Source: Synechococcus sp. HJ21-Hayes
GTDB lineage: Bacteria > Cyanobacteriota > Cyanobacteriia > PCC-6307 > Cyanobiaceae
Length of the DNA: 64,000 nt
Assembly (NCBI RefSeq): GCF_024345835.1
Contig: NZ_JAGQBW010000009.1
Coordinates: 1-64,000, forward strand
Direction of reading: 5' to 3'
The notes below the pieces were generated by a model. It did no database searches. It saw only the letters and a list, made by a program, of their open reading frames with translations, and was not told the origin of the DNA. The position numbers and the translations under genes are program-made. Shown here in pieces: positions 31,562 to 42,293 of the stretch (its first letter is position 1; every line of letters starts with the position of its first letter).

Positions 31562-32302
31562 ATGGTCGGCGCCACACGCGGCTTCACCCGCTACTCCGCC
31601 AGTCCAACCACCGGCAACACTGGACTGACTCCAGCGGCTGGCAGTGCGCTGTCCGGCAACACCACGCTGCTGGACGTGATCCGCGGCCTGAACGGCAGCA
31701 CAACCGAAACGGTTGAACGCGGCAAGACGATCTTCTTTCCGGGCGATCCGGCCGAGAAGGTGTATCTGCTGCGTCGGGGCGCTGTTCGGCTCTCGCGCGT
31801 CTACGAATCCGGCGAAGAAATCACCGTGGCCCTGCTGCGAGAGAACAGCCTGTTTGGCGTGCTGTCGCTACTGACCGGCCAGCGCTCCGACCGCTTCTAT
31901 CACGCGATTGCCTTCACCCGGGTGGAGATGGTGACGGCACCGGCCACCTCGGTGCGCAAAGCCATCGAGCAGGACGCCAGCGTGGGGCTGTTGATGCTGC
32001 AGGGCCTCTCCTCCCGCATCCTGCAGACCGAAACGATGATCGAAACCCTCACCCACCGCGACATGAGCTCGCGACTGGTGAGCTTTCTGCTGGTGCTGTG
32101 TCGCGATTTCGGCGTCCCCAGCAGCGAAGGGATCACGATCGACCTGCGCCTGTCCCACCAGGCCATTGCCGAGGCCATCGGCTCCACCCGCGTCACGATC
32201 ACCCGCCTGCTGGGCGACCTGCGCAATGCCGGCTTGGTGCAGATCGACCGCAAAAAGATCACGGTGTTCGATCCCCTAGCCCTGGCCAAGCGCTTCAGCT
32301 GA
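31562..32302 (+). CDS. ntcA: Global nitrogen regulator NtcA
   Basis: A CRP-family regulator that binds 2-oxoglutarate and activates nitrogen-assimilation genes at GTA-N8-TAC sites. It has 246 residues. The cyclic-nucleotide-binding-like fold ([35 protein letters not shown]) is joined by a long helix ([20 protein letters not shown]) to the helix-turn-helix [21 protein letters not shown]. About 30 extra N-terminal residues before the core are common in picocyanobacteria. I see no clear NtcA site in the 64-base upstream gap. Confidence 0.97.
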
Positions 32303-32370: not shown

Positions 32371-33576
32371 GTGTCCGGCTGGCTGCTGATCCTGGCGTTG
32401 CTGGTGCTCGGGGGGATCCTCTCCACCCTGGGGGATCGGCTGGGCACGCGCGTTGGCAAAGCGCGCCTCAGCCTGTTCAACATGCGGCCGCGCAAGACGG
32501 CCGTGCTGATCACGGTGCTCACCGGAAGCCTGATCAGTGCCATGTCGCTCGGCCTGATGCTGCTGGTGAGCGAGCGGTTGCGCACCGGCCTCTTTGAACT
32601 CGACCAACTGGAGCGCCGTCTGCGGGATAGCCGCCATTCCCTGGAAACAAGCCGCACCGAACTCAGCCGCAGCCAGGCGGCCCTACTCCAGGCTCGCAGT
32701 GGCCGGCTAGAGGCCCGTACCCAGCTGGCCCTGGTGGAGCGCCAAGCCCAGGGGCTGCGCAAGGAACTGCAGCCCCTGGTGCAACAGCGCAAGGTGCTGG
32801 AGCAGGAACGCGATCGTCTCAATGGCGATATCGCCGCCAAAGATGCCGACATCCGTCGCAACCGCGATGAGCTGGCCAAGGTGACCCAGAAGATCGCTGC
32901 AGGAGCCAAGGAACTCGAGCAACTGGAAACCAACCTGATCGCCCTACGTCGCGGCGACGTGGTGATCACCAGCGGCCAGCCCCTGGCCACGGCCAAGGTG
33001 CGCATTGACAACCCCAACCAGGCCCCGGAGGTGATCCAGTCTCTGCTGGTCCAAGCCAATCTGGCGGCCTACCAGCGGGTGCTGCCCGGCGAGAAGGCGA
33101 ACCGCCAGATCCTGCTGGTGCCGCGCAGCGACATCGCCAAACTCAACACCATCCTGCGCCAGCGAGGCTCCTGGGTGGTGAGCCTGATCTCGGCGGCGAA
33201 CGTACTCAAGGGTGAGCGCCAAGTGCTGGCCTTCCCGGATGTGCGCCCCAACCGGCAGGTGATCCGCAATGGCGAGCAACTCGCCACCACCGTGCTCGAA
33301 GGCGATGAATTGAACGCCGAACAAGTGCGGAGCCGTCTGAATCTGCTGATGGCGGCGGCCTTCACCAAAGCCCAGCGGCAAGGGTCCCTCGCCAACGGTC
33401 TTCAATTTGATGCCACCCGTTTCAATCAGCTCGGTGCCGCCCTGAGCGCACGCCCAGCTGGTGAATCCGTGCGTCTGGAAGCCATCTCCCGGCGCAACAG
33501 CGATCTGGCCGATCCCGTTGTGGTGGACATCAGGGCCATGCAGACCCCAGCCACGGCGGTGCCCGGACGGAATTGA
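32371..33576 (+). CDS. DUF3084 membrane-anchored coiled-coil protein
   Basis: A 401-residue cyanobacterial DUF3084 protein. Two N-terminal membrane helices (about 4-20 and 44-66) are followed by a long coiled coil (about 75-190, rich in Leu, Glu, Arg, Gln). A globular C-terminal half then starts at RRGDVVITSGQPLATAKV and includes NRQVIRNGEQLATTVLEGD. The function is unknown. GTG at 32371 is the start. The stop overlaps the next gene's TTG (TTGA), so the two are translationally coupled. Confidence 0.9.
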   Translation: MSGWLLILALLVLGGILSTLGDRLGTRVGKARLSLFNMRPRKTAVLITVLTGSLISAMSLGLMLLVSERLRTGLFELDQLERRLRDSRHSLETSRTELSRSQAALLQARSGRLEARTQLALVERQAQGLRKELQPLVQQRKVLEQERDRLNGDIAAKDADIRRNRDELAKVTQKIAAGAKELEQLETNLIALRRGDVVITSGQPLATAKVRIDNPNQAPEVIQSLLVQANLAAYQRVLPGEKANRQILLVPRSDIAKLNTILRQRGSWVVSLISAANVLKGERQVLAFPDVRPNRQVIRNGEQLATTVLEGDELNAEQVRSRLNLLMAAAFTKAQRQGSLANGLQFDATRFNQLGAALSARPAGESVRLEAISRRNSDLADPVVVDIRAMQTPATAVPGRN

Positions 33577-34025
33577 CCACAGCGCGGCCCCATGAAACCG
33601 CCAGCCCGGGCCAGGGGCCCTGGGCGGCCCTGGATCCAGGCCGCAGCAAATGCGGCCTGGTGCTCAGCAACCCCGAGGCCACGAGCATCGTGGAGGCCGC
33701 TGTGCTGCCCCCAGACAACTGCTGGCAGCGGCTGCAGAGCTGGCAGCAGCGCAGGCCGCTGCAGGCCGTGATCCTGGGGGATGGCACGGGCAGTGGGGCC
33801 TGGCAGCAACAGCTAGCTGAACTGGGCGCAGCGGTGATCCTGGTGCCGGAACGGGGCACCACCCTGGAGGCTCGCCAGCGCTACTGGCAACTGGAGCCCC
33901 CGAATCTCTGGCAACGGCTGCTTCCCAGGGGCCTGCGCCTGCCGTCGCGCGACTGGGACGACGTGGTGGCGCAGCTCTTGCTGGAGCGGCACCTCAAGCG
34001 GGAACTGAGCCGCACACTGGCCTGA
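33573..34025 (+). CDS. YqgF/RuvX-like RNase H-fold protein
   Basis: A 150-residue protein with the pattern of the YqgF (pre-16S rRNA nuclease/Holliday-junction resolvase-like) fold. It has a first-strand acidic motif, AALDPGRSKCGLVL (Asp21), a middle LVPERGTTLEARQRYW (Glu93/Glu99), and a C-terminal acidic pair, SRDWDDVVAQLLLERHL (Asp127-130). In true YqgF the middle motif is DERxTT; here it is PER, so it is a divergent relative. TTG at 33573 overlaps the DUF3084 stop. The first 15 residues look disordered. Confidence 0.82.
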   Translation: MTTARPHETASPGQGPWAALDPGRSKCGLVLSNPEATSIVEAAVLPPDNCWQRLQSWQQRRPLQAVILGDGTGSGAWQQQLAELGAAVILVPERGTTLEARQRYWQLEPPNLWQRLLPRGLRLPSRDWDDVVAQLLLERHLKRELSRTLA

Positions 34026-34034
34026 GCGCCCTGG

Positions 34035-34292
34035 TCAGAACTTGGCCCGCACAGTGAAGGCGTAATCGCCACCGGGCTCCAGTTGATAGTCGGCCTTGAG
34101 CAGAAAGCGCAGCAATGCGTCCTGAATCAGGGCGCGGCCCAGGGAGGGCTCCACCTGCAACTCGCCGCGATCAAAAAACCAGCAGAAGGTCCACTGGAAG
34201 CCGCCGGCCACCACCTCCCCCTCCAACAGCCGCTGGCTGAAGCTCTGGTGCAGCACGCGCAACTGAGCGGTAGTAGCAGGCAAGGGACTCAT
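34035..34292 (-). CDS. DUF3146 family protein
   Basis: An 85-residue protein matching the cyanobacterial DUF3146 family: AQLRVLHQSFSQRLLEGEV, GGFQWTFCWFFDRGELQVEPSLGRALI and LLRFLLKADYQLEPGGDY. It is soluble, with an alpha/beta look. The function is unknown. The ATG overlaps the pth stop by four bases, so it ends the psbH-tatA-pth unit. It is convergent with the YqgF-like gene. Confidence 0.86.
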   Translation of the reverse strand: MSPLPATTAQLRVLHQSFSQRLLEGEVVAGGFQWTFCWFFDRGELQVEPSLGRALIQDALLRFLLKADYQLEPGGDYAFTVRAKF

Positions 34293-34933
34293 GCCGGCAC
34301 ATCCGCGAGCTTGGCAGCCGTGGGGGCCACAAAGCCATTGAGGCGATTACCGGCGCGCTCCAACCCAAGCTGCGCGATCAGATCCACTCCCGCCAACGCC
34401 TCATCGAGCACCTCATCGAGGATCGGCTGCTCGCTCGGGGAAAAGCGACCAAGCACGTGGGACACGGTGCGCTGCTTGCGCTCCACCGGATTGAGCCCCG
34501 GGGCCCCAATACCAATACGCAACCGCGAAAACTCCTGACCGCCCAGATGGGTGATGGTGCTGCGGAGGCCGTTGTGCCCCCCGGCCCCACCAGAGGCGCG
34601 CAGCCGCAGCCGCCCGAGGGGCAGATCCATGTCGTCCACCAGGATCAACATCTGGCTGGGCTCCAGGCGGAACCAGTCGAGGGCCGCGCGGATAGAACGC
34701 CCGCTCTCATTCATGTAGGTCTGCGGCATCAAGAGGCGCAGGCGGCTCGGCCCATAGCCAACCTCGGCCAGCAGACCGTGGAGCTTGGCCTGCACCTTGA
34801 AGGCCACGCCATGGCGGGAGGCCAAGCGCTCCAAGGCCATGAAGCCCACATTGTGCCGAGTCCCTGCGTACTTGTCGCCGGGATTACCCAGGCCAACAAG
34901 CAACTGCAGGGATGCGGCAGGCTGCGCTGTCAT
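34289..34933 (-). CDS. pth: Peptidyl-tRNA hydrolase
   Basis: This enzyme releases peptides from tRNA that fell off the ribosome. It has 214 residues from the ATG at 34933 (MTAQPAASLQ). The VGLGNPGDKYAGTRHNVGF start with the catalytic His, MPQTYMNESG, the LVDDMDLPLG loop with its Asp, and GGHNGLRSTI are all intact. It lies 14 bases after tatA and overlaps DUF3146 by four bases. Confidence 0.97.
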   Translation of the reverse strand: MTAQPAASLQLLVGLGNPGDKYAGTRHNVGFMALERLASRHGVAFKVQAKLHGLLAEVGYGPSRLRLLMPQTYMNESGRSIRAALDWFRLEPSQMLILVDDMDLPLGRLRLRASGGAGGHNGLRSTITHLGGQEFSRLRIGIGAPGLNPVERKQRTVSHVLGRFSPSEQPILDEVLDEALAGVDLIAQLGLERAGNRLNGFVAPTAAKLADVPA

Positions 34934-34947
34934 GGCAGACAAGGGGC

Positions 34948-39008: not shown

Positions 39009-42000
39009 ATGCAGGCGGGCATGCGTGGCAGGATCAGCTCCGCTTGCCTCGCCTCGGTGCCTTCCCCTCAGCGTTTCAGCCGTGTGATCGCGGCGTTGGG
39101 GTCGGTAGCAGTGTCGATGCAGCCGGGTTTTGCTCTGGCAGGGCCAGAGCTGCCTATCCCGGCATCGCCGAACTCCATTGACCAGCCGCCGAAGCCGAGG
39201 CTGATCCCGGCTTCCCCCGCGCAGCAACCACCTCTGGATATCGAGCTCAGGGCAGATACCCAGGGATTCGACCAACAACTCAACCGTTTTGTGGCCAGCG
39301 GTCGCGTGATGGCTTTTGTGGCTGGAGGCCGCTTGCTGGCCGACCGTTTGGAGTATGAGTTCACAACCCGCACGATCTACGCCAGCGGCAGTGTGCGGTT
39401 CCAGCGGGGTGAACAGTATTTGCAGGCCAGCAAACTGCGCTACAGCCTGATCGCCAGCACCGGGGAATTGGAGGATGTGTATGGCGTTCTTGATCTCGAT
39501 ACCACTGCCAGTGATCTGGATCTGGCTCAACCGCCCTCGGCGGCCCTTGCACCGCTCAGTTACTGGAACGCACCAAGCCCGCTGGCATCCAGCCAACCCC
39601 AATTCAGCACCGAGCCTCCAGCCCTCCTGATCCAAGCCAATGGCAAGGCCCAGGGCCAAGCGATCTCCAGCTGGGCTACCAGTACGGAACGCACCCAGAC
39701 CGCGCTCGAACAACAGCCCCTCGATCCACCCACCCAGGGCGCTGAACCGTTTAAGGCCCTGAGCTCCGCGACGCTGCCCATTCCATCCGGTGTGGCACCG
39801 ATCGAACCCAGCAACGCGGACTGGCGGATGCCTCCCGTGGCCCTCTCCCCCGCCGCCCAGACGATGGCATGCCCGCCACCGCTCCCGGCTATCCCCGATT
39901 GGCATCCCTATCCGTGGGCCGCAACCCTCTGGGGCGGTCAGATGGTGGATTCCAACTTCGGCGACACCTTCGTGTTCAACGGACGCCTGCGCCCGGAATA
40001 TCTGCTGGGCGTGGGCCTCAACAAGCGGCTGATCGAGGCCGGACCACTGGCCCTGGAATTCGACTCCAACCTGATGGGCCACCACGCCTACACCCAGGCG
40101 GGTGGTGAATTCAACCAGGCCGTTCCTTTCGCCGACACCCCCGCACAGACCTTTGCTGAAATCACAGCCGGACTTGGCCTACGCCTGTGGGTACAACCCT
40201 GGCTCAGCCTCGGCTTTGTGGAAGGGGTGAGCCTGAACACATCGGTGAGCAACTACGAGAAGACCTACCGCGAAAACTACACAGCCTTCCTGAATTACTT
40301 GGGCTTTGAGGTGGAGGCGCTGGTGTCGCCGGAATGGTCGGTGGTGGGACGCATCCATCACCGCTCCGGGGCCTATGGCACCTACAGCGGCGTGAGTGAA
40401 GGCAGCAACGCTTACCTGATGGGCGTTCGCTACAGATTCGGGGAGGCGCCAGCCCAACGACTCACCGCCAGCATGCCTCCCCCCAGTGGCTGTTCCGATC
40501 CGGATCGCACCCGCCGTCAACCGGTGCGCCCCCTAGCCGAGCAGCTCAACAGCGTGGCCTTCGGAGCATTGGATTCAACCACCCCAGAAGAACCGAGCAC
40601 AGCAGCCAAGCCCACCACAACCTTGACGCCAAGGCAGCAAGAACAGGAGCGCCAACAGGCCATTGATGCCGCCGTGGATCAAAGGGTCAGCAATCTCACC
40701 TACGTGCGCAGCCTGAAGCTGGAGCGCCGCCTCGGGGTCACCACCACCTACGCACAACCCAGCGAGGCCGAAACCTTCGGCCAGGCCCAACCACGGCAGA
40801 TCCGCAGCCTCAATGCAGCAGGCCCCCAGAAATTGGTGGATGGAACGGTGAGTCGCTGGCGCTTCCAAGCCGCCAAACTCACCCTCACCCCCGATGGCTG
40901 GAGTGGTGATCGGGTGGCATTCACCAACGACCCCTACACCCCTGCCCAGTCGTGGCTGGATGCCGAAGGTGTGTTGGCCAAACAGCTGCCCGGCGGCGCC
41001 ACCCAGATCCGCAGCCAGCGCAGCCGGCTGATTCTTGAGAACAGATTGCCCCTGCCGATGCGGCGCAACCTATTACTGGAAAAGGACAAGGAGGTCGACA
41101 ATCCCTGGGTTACGGCTGTTGATGGCGAAGACCGCGATGGTTTCTACGTGGGCCGCAAGCTCCAACCCATCAAGCTGGGGCAGCGCGGGGCCAAGCTCAC
41201 GCTTCAACCCCAGTTCATGGTGCAGCGGGCCCTCAGCGGCACAACGGACAGCTATCCCCTACCCGGCCAATCCGCCGGTGATCCCGGCAGCAGCCAGCCC
41301 ACCCGCATTGGCGATCTGTTTGGCCTGGAAAGCAAGCTAAAGGGCACGGTTCTGGGCTTCAGCAGCGATGCCACCGTGAGCATCTCCAGCTTTGACCCCA
41401 GCAATCTCACCAATGCGATCCGCAGCTGGGGCGATTTCGCCAAACCGATCAGCCTGCCGGGTATCGGCACGGTCACGAGCCGCCTATTCGGGGCCTATCG
41501 CTACCGAACCTGGAATGGATCCCTGGGGGAACAGGATGTGTATTCCGCGCTTGGCGCTTCACTCGAGCAGGTCGGCGCGCTTCCAAACTGGGGATCAATC
41601 AGCCACAACTACTTCTGGCGCGCAGGCTTCGGCAGTTTTCAGGGCAATGAGTTCAATACCACCAACATCGCCGACTTCTGGCGAGCCAGCTTCTTTGGGT
41701 CGGTGAACAGCTCCGTAGCCCTCTGGACCGGCAAGCCGGCCCCTGTGAACGCCGAGGCCGCCACACGCAACACCCCAACCCCGATCGTGCCAGGGCTCAG
41801 CATCAACACCAACACATCGCTCAACGTGGCTTACTACGGCGATGGCACCAACCAGAACCTGCTGAGCATCTCCGGCGGTCCATCCCTGACCCTGGGCCAT
41901 TTCACCAAGAACTTCCTCGACTACACCGTCTTCACCGTTACCGGTGGGGGCACCCTGCGCCAGGGGCAGAGCCCCTTCAGCTTTGATCGAGCTGTGGACC

Positions 42001-42293
42001 TCGCCACCCTTGGCCTTGGCTGGACCCAACAACTCGTAGGTCCGCTGGTGTTCAGTGGGGGCTTGGGGCTGAATGTGGATCCCTCATCCATTTATTTCGG
42101 CGACGTAACCGGGGCCTCGGTGGAGCTGCGTTGGCAGCGCCGCGGTTATGAATTCGCTGTTTATTACAGTCCCTACGAACAGATCGGGGGCGTTCGTGTG
42201 AAGTTGAACGATTTCAACTTCTCAGGAACGGGCGTGCCCTTCGTGCCCTATCACCCGAGCAACGAGTACGCCAAGCGCCGCTCCCTCTTTTAA
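39009..42293 (+). CDS. DUF3769 protein, LptD/OstA-like outer-membrane protein
   Basis: A 1094-residue exported protein. The signal-like N-terminus (VIAALGSVAVSMQPGFALAG) ends near residue 45. An OstA/LptA-like beta domain runs about 76-170 (DIELRADTQGFDQQLNRFVA, YASGSVRFQRGEQYLQASKL). A linker and an inserted outer-membrane-like segment follow, then a long beta-barrel part ending in RRSLF with a C-terminal Phe, as in BAM substrates. The family is cyanobacterial and thought to place lipopolysaccharide. The ATG at 39009 or the Met five codons later are both possible starts. It overlaps the convergent pentapeptide gene by four bases. Confidence 0.88.
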   Translation: MQAGMRGRISSACLASVPSPQRFSRVIAALGSVAVSMQPGFALAGPELPIPASPNSIDQPPKPRLIPASPAQQPPLDIELRADTQGFDQQLNRFVASGRVMAFVAGGRLLADRLEYEFTTRTIYASGSVRFQRGEQYLQASKLRYSLIASTGELEDVYGVLDLDTTASDLDLAQPPSAALAPLSYWNAPSPLASSQPQFSTEPPALLIQANGKAQGQAISSWATSTERTQTALEQQPLDPPTQGAEPFKALSSATLPIPSGVAPIEPSNADWRMPPVALSPAAQTMACPPPLPAIPDWHPYPWAATLWGGQMVDSNFGDTFVFNGRLRPEYLLGVGLNKRLIEAGPLALEFDSNLMGHHAYTQAGGEFNQAVPFADTPAQTFAEITAGLGLRLWVQPWLSLGFVEGVSLNTSVSNYEKTYRENYTAFLNYLGFEVEALVSPEWSVVGRIHHRSGAYGTYSGVSEGSNAYLMGVRYRFGEAPAQRLTASMPPPSGCSDPDRTRRQPVRPLAEQLNSVAFGALDSTTPEEPSTAAKPTTTLTPRQQEQERQQAIDAAVDQRVSNLTYVRSLKLERRLGVTTTYAQPSEAETFGQAQPRQIRSLNAAGPQKLVDGTVSRWRFQAAKLTLTPDGWSGDRVAFTNDPYTPAQSWLDAEGVLAKQLPGGATQIRSQRSRLILENRLPLPMRRNLLLEKDKEVDNPWVTAVDGEDRDGFYVGRKLQPIKLGQRGAKLTLQPQFMVQRALSGTTDSYPLPGQSAGDPGSSQPTRIGDLFGLESKLKGTVLGFSSDATVSISSFDPSNLTNAIRSWGDFAKPISLPGIGTVTSRLFGAYRYRTWNGSLGEQDVYSALGASLEQVGALPNWGSISHNYFWRAGFGSFQGNEFNTTNIADFWRASFFGSVNSSVALWTGKPAPVNAEAATRNTPTPIVPGLSINTNTSLNVAYYGDGTNQNLLSISGGPSLTLGHFTKNFLDYTVFTVTGGGTLRQGQSPFSFDRAVDLATLGLGWTQQLVGPLVFSGGLGLNVDPSSIYFGDVTGASVELRWQRRGYEFAVYYSPYEQIGGVRVKLNDFNFSGTGVPFVPYHPSNEYAKRRSLF

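Follow-up and report, generated by a model that had tools for sequence, protein, structure and literature searches.

A conserved gene pair of Cyanobacteriia encoding a DUF3084 membrane protein and a RuvX/YqgF-like protein

Genes and features of the locus

The window is the whole 64,000-nucleotide stretch of Synechococcus DNA that was analysed, and the locus under study consists of two genes on its forward strand, which encode a DUF3084 protein and a small RuvX/YqgF-like protein (hereafter Y). The two open reading frames have the TTGA at 33573-33576 in common, in agreement with the overlap described in the original prediction. The features of the pair and its neighbours are listed in Table 1. 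When inspected by eye, open reading frames resembling DUF3146 also adjoined Y in the loci L115, L123, L124 and L128; this held in L123 even though the DUF3084 gene of that genome sits on another contig.

Table 1. Features of the DUF3084-Y locus, in window coordinates
Feature	Position	Strand	Basis
ntcA (global nitrogen regulator), same-strand upstream neighbour	31562..32302	+	NCBIfam TIGR03697, E 1e-112, above cut-off
DUF3084 protein, 401 aa, GTG start	32371..33576	+	Pfam PF11283, E 4e-32, residues 3-79
DUF3084 first membrane helix, about residues 3-21	32377..32433	+	Hydrophobic stretch; modelled helix 2-31, low confidence
DUF3084 short basic loop, about residues 22-45, predicted cytosolic	32434..32505	+	Net charge +4 to +7 in 114/114 genomes
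DUF3084 second membrane helix, about residues 46-67	32506..32571	+	Hydrophobic stretch; charge spacing after the RPR motif
DUF3084 coiled coil, about residues 68-193, predicted periplasmic or lumenal	32572..32949	+	Single modelled helix 43-193; Cys-poor
DUF3084 C-terminal alpha/beta domain, about residues 194-391	32950..33543	+	Predicted secondary structure: two b-a-a-b-b units
Y, RuvX/YqgF-like protein, 150 aa, TTG start within the DUF3084 stop overlap	33573..34025	+	Pfam, fold, acids
D21 codon of Y, triad acid 1, end of b1	33633..33635	+	D in 142/142 rows
E93 codon of Y, triad acid 2, just after b5, E of PER/DER	33849..33851	+	E in 142/142 rows
D129 codon of Y, triad acid 3, start of last helix	33957..33959	+	D in 142/142 rows
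DUF3146 gene, convergent to Y	34035..34292	-	Pfam PF11344, E 7e-39
pth	34289..34942	-	Beyond DUF3146
tatA-like gene	after pth	-	
DUF3769 gene, 1094 aa, about 5 kb downstream of the DUF3084-Y pair	39009-42293		

The N-terminal 77-residue domain of the DUF3084 protein (PF11283) scored 110.3 bits against a cut-off of 25. DUF3084 labels carried by other long proteins in two publications (PMC8967839, PMC5727368) look like annotation noise, as far as the available portions of those papers show. The AlphaFold2 model of the full protein (pLDDT 82.9, pTM 0.46), of low confidence in its membrane part, displayed the two-helix membrane anchor and long coiled coil that had been read from the sequence; the truncated DUF3084 sequence of L011 was left out of the folding alignment. 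A search of the DUF3084 sequence profile against solved structures returned one chain, by name a designed coiled coil, at E 6e-4. The C-terminal domain was modelled with high confidence. Its comparison with solved structures, which used the full-protein model and not the domain folded alone, gave no clear match (best Foldseek E 0.14, best Z 6.5). A duplication of the two b-a-a-b-b units had no sequence support, as the unit comparison reached an hhalign probability of 0.6 and was outscored by several of 20 column-shuffled controls.

Distribution and gene order

The distribution of the two genes was determined in a phylum sample of 291 genomes that were at least 90% complete, of which 141 belong to the window's class, which we take to be Cyanobacteriia, and 150 lie outside it. 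Both Y and DUF3084 were present as single copies in all 141 class genomes. Outside the class, Y was found in 0 of 150 genomes and DUF3084 in four, each without Y (three genomes of family f32 and one of f36); one of these four, G035, is an assembly with 9% contamination. NtcA was also found in 141 genomes of the phylum sample. A Y match in one genome outside the class (G010, E 1.5e-4) fell in a 710-residue frame that was read by eye as Tex, and it was not counted. Three of 14 control genomes had DUF3084 matches, namely S. elongatus, Thermus composti and Deinobacterium chartae. Searches of plasmids with DUF3084 (tblastn) returned nothing at E 0.001, and scans of viral contigs with both alignments yielded 9 and 21 pattern matches, none of which was confirmed.

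Two of the loci outside the class (L109 9818-11263 and L110 8171-9553, both f32) have DUF3084 adjoining a chorismate-binding enzyme, not Y; the enzyme was identified by Pfam in L109 and by eye in L110. Another locus, L024, is a contig with cyanobacterial genes deposited as Bifidobacterium breve.

Adjacency was defined as a position on one strand within 5.5 kb. The survey of adjacency that the original prediction had proposed revealed a conserved arrangement, with DUF3084 and Y adjacent in 105 of 141 class genomes and 21 of 29 families, which is more than chance. The gene pair is real and old. ntcA and DUF3084 were adjacent in 126 of the 141 genomes (22 families). Both adjacencies occurred together in 102 genomes, three genomes from three families had the DUF3084-Y pair without ntcA beside it, and 12 had neither; Y lay away from DUF3084 in 36. 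Among the 46 relatives recovered by the Y search, DUF3084 was located just upstream in every case, and a start codon giving the four-base overlap was available in 42. With starts chosen by script, 24 of the 105 pairs overlapped by four bases, one overlapped otherwise, 43 were spaced by 0-50 bases, 31 by 51-300 and six by more than 300. No DUF3084-Y fusion was detected among the 105 loci holding both genes on one strand. Within the accessible portions of the literature on DUF3084, COG4372 and cyanobacterial YqgF, we found no description of the pair in cyanobacteria.

Since adjacency is inherited, the 105 pairs are not independent events. Co-evolution was assessed by the correlation of distances over 40 of the 46 loci, after exclusion of six in which at least one of the four genes was absent or well short of full length; the partial r was 0.37 for DUF3084-Y, 0.52 for NtcA-DUF3084 and 0.42 for Y-Pth, which makes the measure uninformative for the DUF3084-Y pair. 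The greater frequency of the ntcA-DUF3084 adjacency (126 against 105 of 141) indicates that part of the DUF3084-Y adjacency is plain block synteny, and that synteny alone proves no two-gene unit.

These counts bear on the possibility that the gene order is conserved without shared function, in which case DUF3084 and Y would be independent housekeeping proteins of an old ntcA-DUF3084-Y-DUF3146-pth block and the four-base overlap would reflect compact genomes. The more frequent proximity of ntcA and DUF3084, the displacement of Y in 36 genomes, the confinement of 19 of the 24 overlaps to family f1, the occurrence of DUF3084 without Y outside the class and the unexceptional distance correlation all agree with this explanation. 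However, three families retain the pair with no ntcA beside it, and COG0816 and DUF3084 genes are described together in a different context, that of diderm Firmicutes, in the available part of a published study (PMC5007114). We regard plain synteny as quite possible and as a close rival to the reading of the pair as a module.

The RuvX/YqgF-like protein and its active-site residues

A search for canonical relatives, which the original prediction had called for, identified one RuvX (G000:C37, E 1e-28) and one RuvC (G000:C7, E 7e-38) elsewhere in the window's genome; Y is therefore an extra RuvX-family paralogue. PF03652 matched all 291 phylum genomes and, at E of at most 0.001, two places in 101 of the 104 class genomes outside family f1, the second of which is probably Y. 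A tree of 37 of the 142 Y rows and 29 canonical RuvX sequences, built by a quick method and accompanied by a program warning of long branches, separated the two groups onto opposite sides of one branch (SH-aLRT 100). Judged from sequence, Y is a paralogue of RuvX and not its orthologue. The RuvX alignment omitted L243 and L259, of which L243 was kept in the RuvX cysteine count.

Some observations concern the canonical proteins themselves. The RuvX of the window's own genome (L001 1429-1902) carries NEY where most aligned RuvX sequences show DER, with the E retained. The sole PF03652 match of genome G089 is weak (E 2.5e-9), and this genome may lack an intact canonical RuvX. According to the accessible portions of two publications, Synechocystis RuvC is a working resolvase (PMC11063404) and Anabaena alr3100, listed under the name 'YqgF', is a FurA target (PMC4788461).

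Y itself matched Pfam RuvX (PF03652) at E 4e-4 with 21.2 bits, below the gathering score of 29.2. The AlphaFold2 model (pLDDT 88.1; L030, whose Y has no start near the expected place, was left out of the folding alignment) predicted an RNase H-like fold, which bears out the RNase H-fold protein expected at the outset. Its closest structural matches were Tex, RuvX, Spt6, RuvC, MutS and YqgF domains, with Z scores of 12.2 for Tex 3bzk, 11.5 for RuvX 7ess (Foldseek E 8e-6) and 11.0 for DrYqgF 7w89. The match is unspecific because MutS domains, at Z of about 11, score like YqgF within an overall range of Z 10-12; the modelled fold is RNase H-like, but it does not tell which activity the protein has. 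The sequence profile of Y searched against solved structures gave two weak matches only (E 0.049 and 0.55), which were taken as chance.

The acidic residues predicted to occupy active-site positions, D21, E93 and D129, never changed in the 142 aligned rows, which represent 141 genomes because the window gene appears both under its own name and as L050. Neither of the observations that would have refuted the original prediction, a lack of conserved adjacency or a loss of the acids in orthologues, was made, and its sequence observations hold well beyond the window's genome. K26 was also invariant, and C27 was altered once. In an hhalign comparison with the canonical RuvX of the same genome (probability 65, E 5.9e-5), the three acids paired with D12, E99 and D121, and mapped through this alignment they would match D22, E106 and D122 of D. 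radiodurans YqgF. As described in the available part of the study of that enzyme, its RNase activity was impaired by D22A and blocked by E106A and by D122A, and the unmutated protein showed no resolvase activity, unlike its YqgF counterparts in H. pylori and M. tuberculosis, which resolve Holliday junctions (PMC9601230). Because of these two resolvases, RNA is not assured as the substrate of Y.

The position of the second acid was compared between families. The same source places this acid at the end of b5 in the YqgF family and the catalytic glutamate of RuvC at the end of b4 (PMC9601230, available part). The second acid of Y sits after b5 and not at the b4 end, where a RuvC-type glutamate is missing (residues 65-72; no acid kept in 70% of the 142 rows). 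G69 and T72 of Y are invariant. The GLP motif that follows b4 in canonical RuvX, whose G63 and P65 never change across 29 rows, is not kept; among the Y rows listed, none has a P there. The original prediction had also stressed a changed middle motif, PER instead of DER. PER is indeed present in the window's Y, but it is no family trait, as the 46 relatives show PER, DER, EER, DEH, PEA and others, with the first and third places varying around the invariant E93. Since the motif varies in this way and its D, where DER occurs, does not belong to the triad, the change is a local one.

A catalytically dead RNase H-fold adaptor that only binds its partner or substrate would be compatible with a Pfam score below cut-off and the loss of GLP, as well as with the verdict of an older survey, in its accessible portion, that the b5 acid of YqgF is badly placed (PMC3985635). 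A dead enzyme would, however, rarely keep three acids in 142 of 142 rows, and we consider this explanation improbable.

Membrane topology, interpretation and comparison with known systems

The topology of the DUF3084 protein was examined in one sequence per genome from 114 of the 141 class genomes. Basic loops of membrane proteins face the cytosol, as stated by the positive-inside rule. The loop between the two helices carried a net charge of +4 to +7 and the 15 residues after helix 2 a net charge of -4 to +3, and K/R content was higher in the loop than after helix 2 in all 114 genomes. The first charge after the RPR motif lay 25-29 positions on in 114/114, in a scan that began 12 positions after RPR. 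Cysteine was absent after helix 2 in 105 of 111 genomes, with one residue in five genomes and two in one. Expressed per residue, the cysteine frequency of this region was 0.0002, compared with 0.013 for Y (0.0063 without the conserved C27), 0.0089 for RuvX, 0.0049 for NtcA and 0.0014 for Pth. Across the 46 aligned proteins, the coiled coil had one cysteine in 6338 residues and the C-terminal domain none in 9108. The basic loop together with the near absence of cysteine therefore predicts that the coiled coil and C-terminal domain are located on the periplasmic or lumenal side, away from DNA and ribosomes. Coiled coils may be poor in cysteine for other reasons, and the cytosolic Pth is also poor in it.

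The membrane-tethered nuclease or junction-resolving unit put forward in the original prediction is read here as a model with the coil in the cytosol, near DNA or ribosomes. In its favour are the gene coupling, the intact acids, the predicted membrane anchor and the resolvase activity that YqgF has in H. pylori and M. tuberculosis. Against it, the far-side position predicted for the coil makes it unlikely that a cytosolic nuclease is tethered through the coiled coil, RuvC and RuvX are already encoded in the genome, and D. radiodurans YqgF lacks resolvase activity (PMC9601230, available part). In this form the model is unlikely.

Our preferred reading, held tentatively, is that an envelope-linked membrane protein is co-encoded with a putative RuvX-like nuclease of the cytosol, which is probably active. 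Such a module is possible in view of synteny, one parallel from the literature and the predicted topology. DUF3084 and Y would then be the two members of an old module, co-encoded in Cyanobacteriia, in which Y, a cytosolic RuvX/YqgF paralogue with the full set of catalytic acids, would most likely be a metal-dependent nuclease; RNA is a somewhat more likely substrate, and branched DNA is also possible. DUF3084 would be an inner-membrane protein (plasma or thylakoid) whose two helices present the conserved basic loop to the cytosol, and whose coil and C-terminal domain may serve an envelope function on the periplasmic or lumenal side. If the two proteins cooperate, contact would be expected at the cytosolic loop or via RNA, and not through the coiled coil. 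Both genes were kept in every class genome sampled, and genes that universal are usually important.

An envelope function raises the question of a link to the outer membrane. Omp85 was found in all 291 phylum genomes, including 146 without DUF3084; these are 146 of the 150 members outside the class, which is evidence against an obligatory outer-membrane role of DUF3084. A DUF3769 gene, which belongs to what we take to be a cyanobacterial LptD-like outer-membrane protein family, also occurs in L128, where about 2 kb separate it from Y. In G083 and G241 the distance between Omp85 and DUF3084 is about 4 kb, and the f19 locus L116 (4883-12185) has Omp85 at about 3 kb and LpxC at about 5 kb from DUF3084. 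An outer-membrane cluster was recognised only in L116 when 15 loci from 10 genomes of the class were inspected, largely by eye, on the basis of their ORF starts. The link between DUF3084 and the outer membrane inside the phylum is weak.

The strongest external support is a published parallel in diderm Firmicutes, whose outer-membrane cluster holds COG0816, COG4372 (DUF3084) and COG0750 genes (Antunes et al., 2016; PMC5007114); contact between the COG0816 and DUF3084 genes is not stated in the accessible portion of that text. Because the plasmid and viral searches confirmed nothing, this link is drawn from the published description. By that description, genes of the YqgF/RuvX type and of DUF3084 share a conserved neighbourhood in both groups, on the cyanobacterial side in 105 of the 141 class genomes, and the groups differ in that the pair belongs to an LPS/outer-membrane cluster in the Firmicutes and mostly follows ntcA in cyanobacteria. 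An ancestral module common to cyanobacteria and diderm Firmicutes seems to us doubtful; in it, a dedicated cytosolic nuclease of the RuvX type would connect, through the inner membrane, with a DUF3084 protein bridging or organising the periplasm. Such a module, if real, would couple the turnover of some RNA to envelope assembly, and if the link with the outer-membrane cluster of the Firmicutes is real, both genes would become candidates for an ancient envelope system.

Compared with the YqgF/RuvX family (PF03652; E. coli YqgF, M. tuberculosis RuvX 7ess, D. radiodurans YqgF 7w89), Y shares the predicted RNase H-like fold and has its acids in corresponding places, namely b1, the region after b5, and the last helix. 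It differs from canonical RuvX in its DPGxxKCG start, in having mostly G[DN]xT where RuvX shows GLP, in a b5-to-helix loop mostly with RPP, in its presence beside a canonical RuvX and in its position below the Pfam cut-off in the window. Tex has a YqgF-like domain and gave the best structural match to the Y model. Tex is, however, a large multi-domain protein that lacks the third acid, according to the accessible portion of the older survey (PMC3985635), whereas Y is a single domain in which the third acid is kept.
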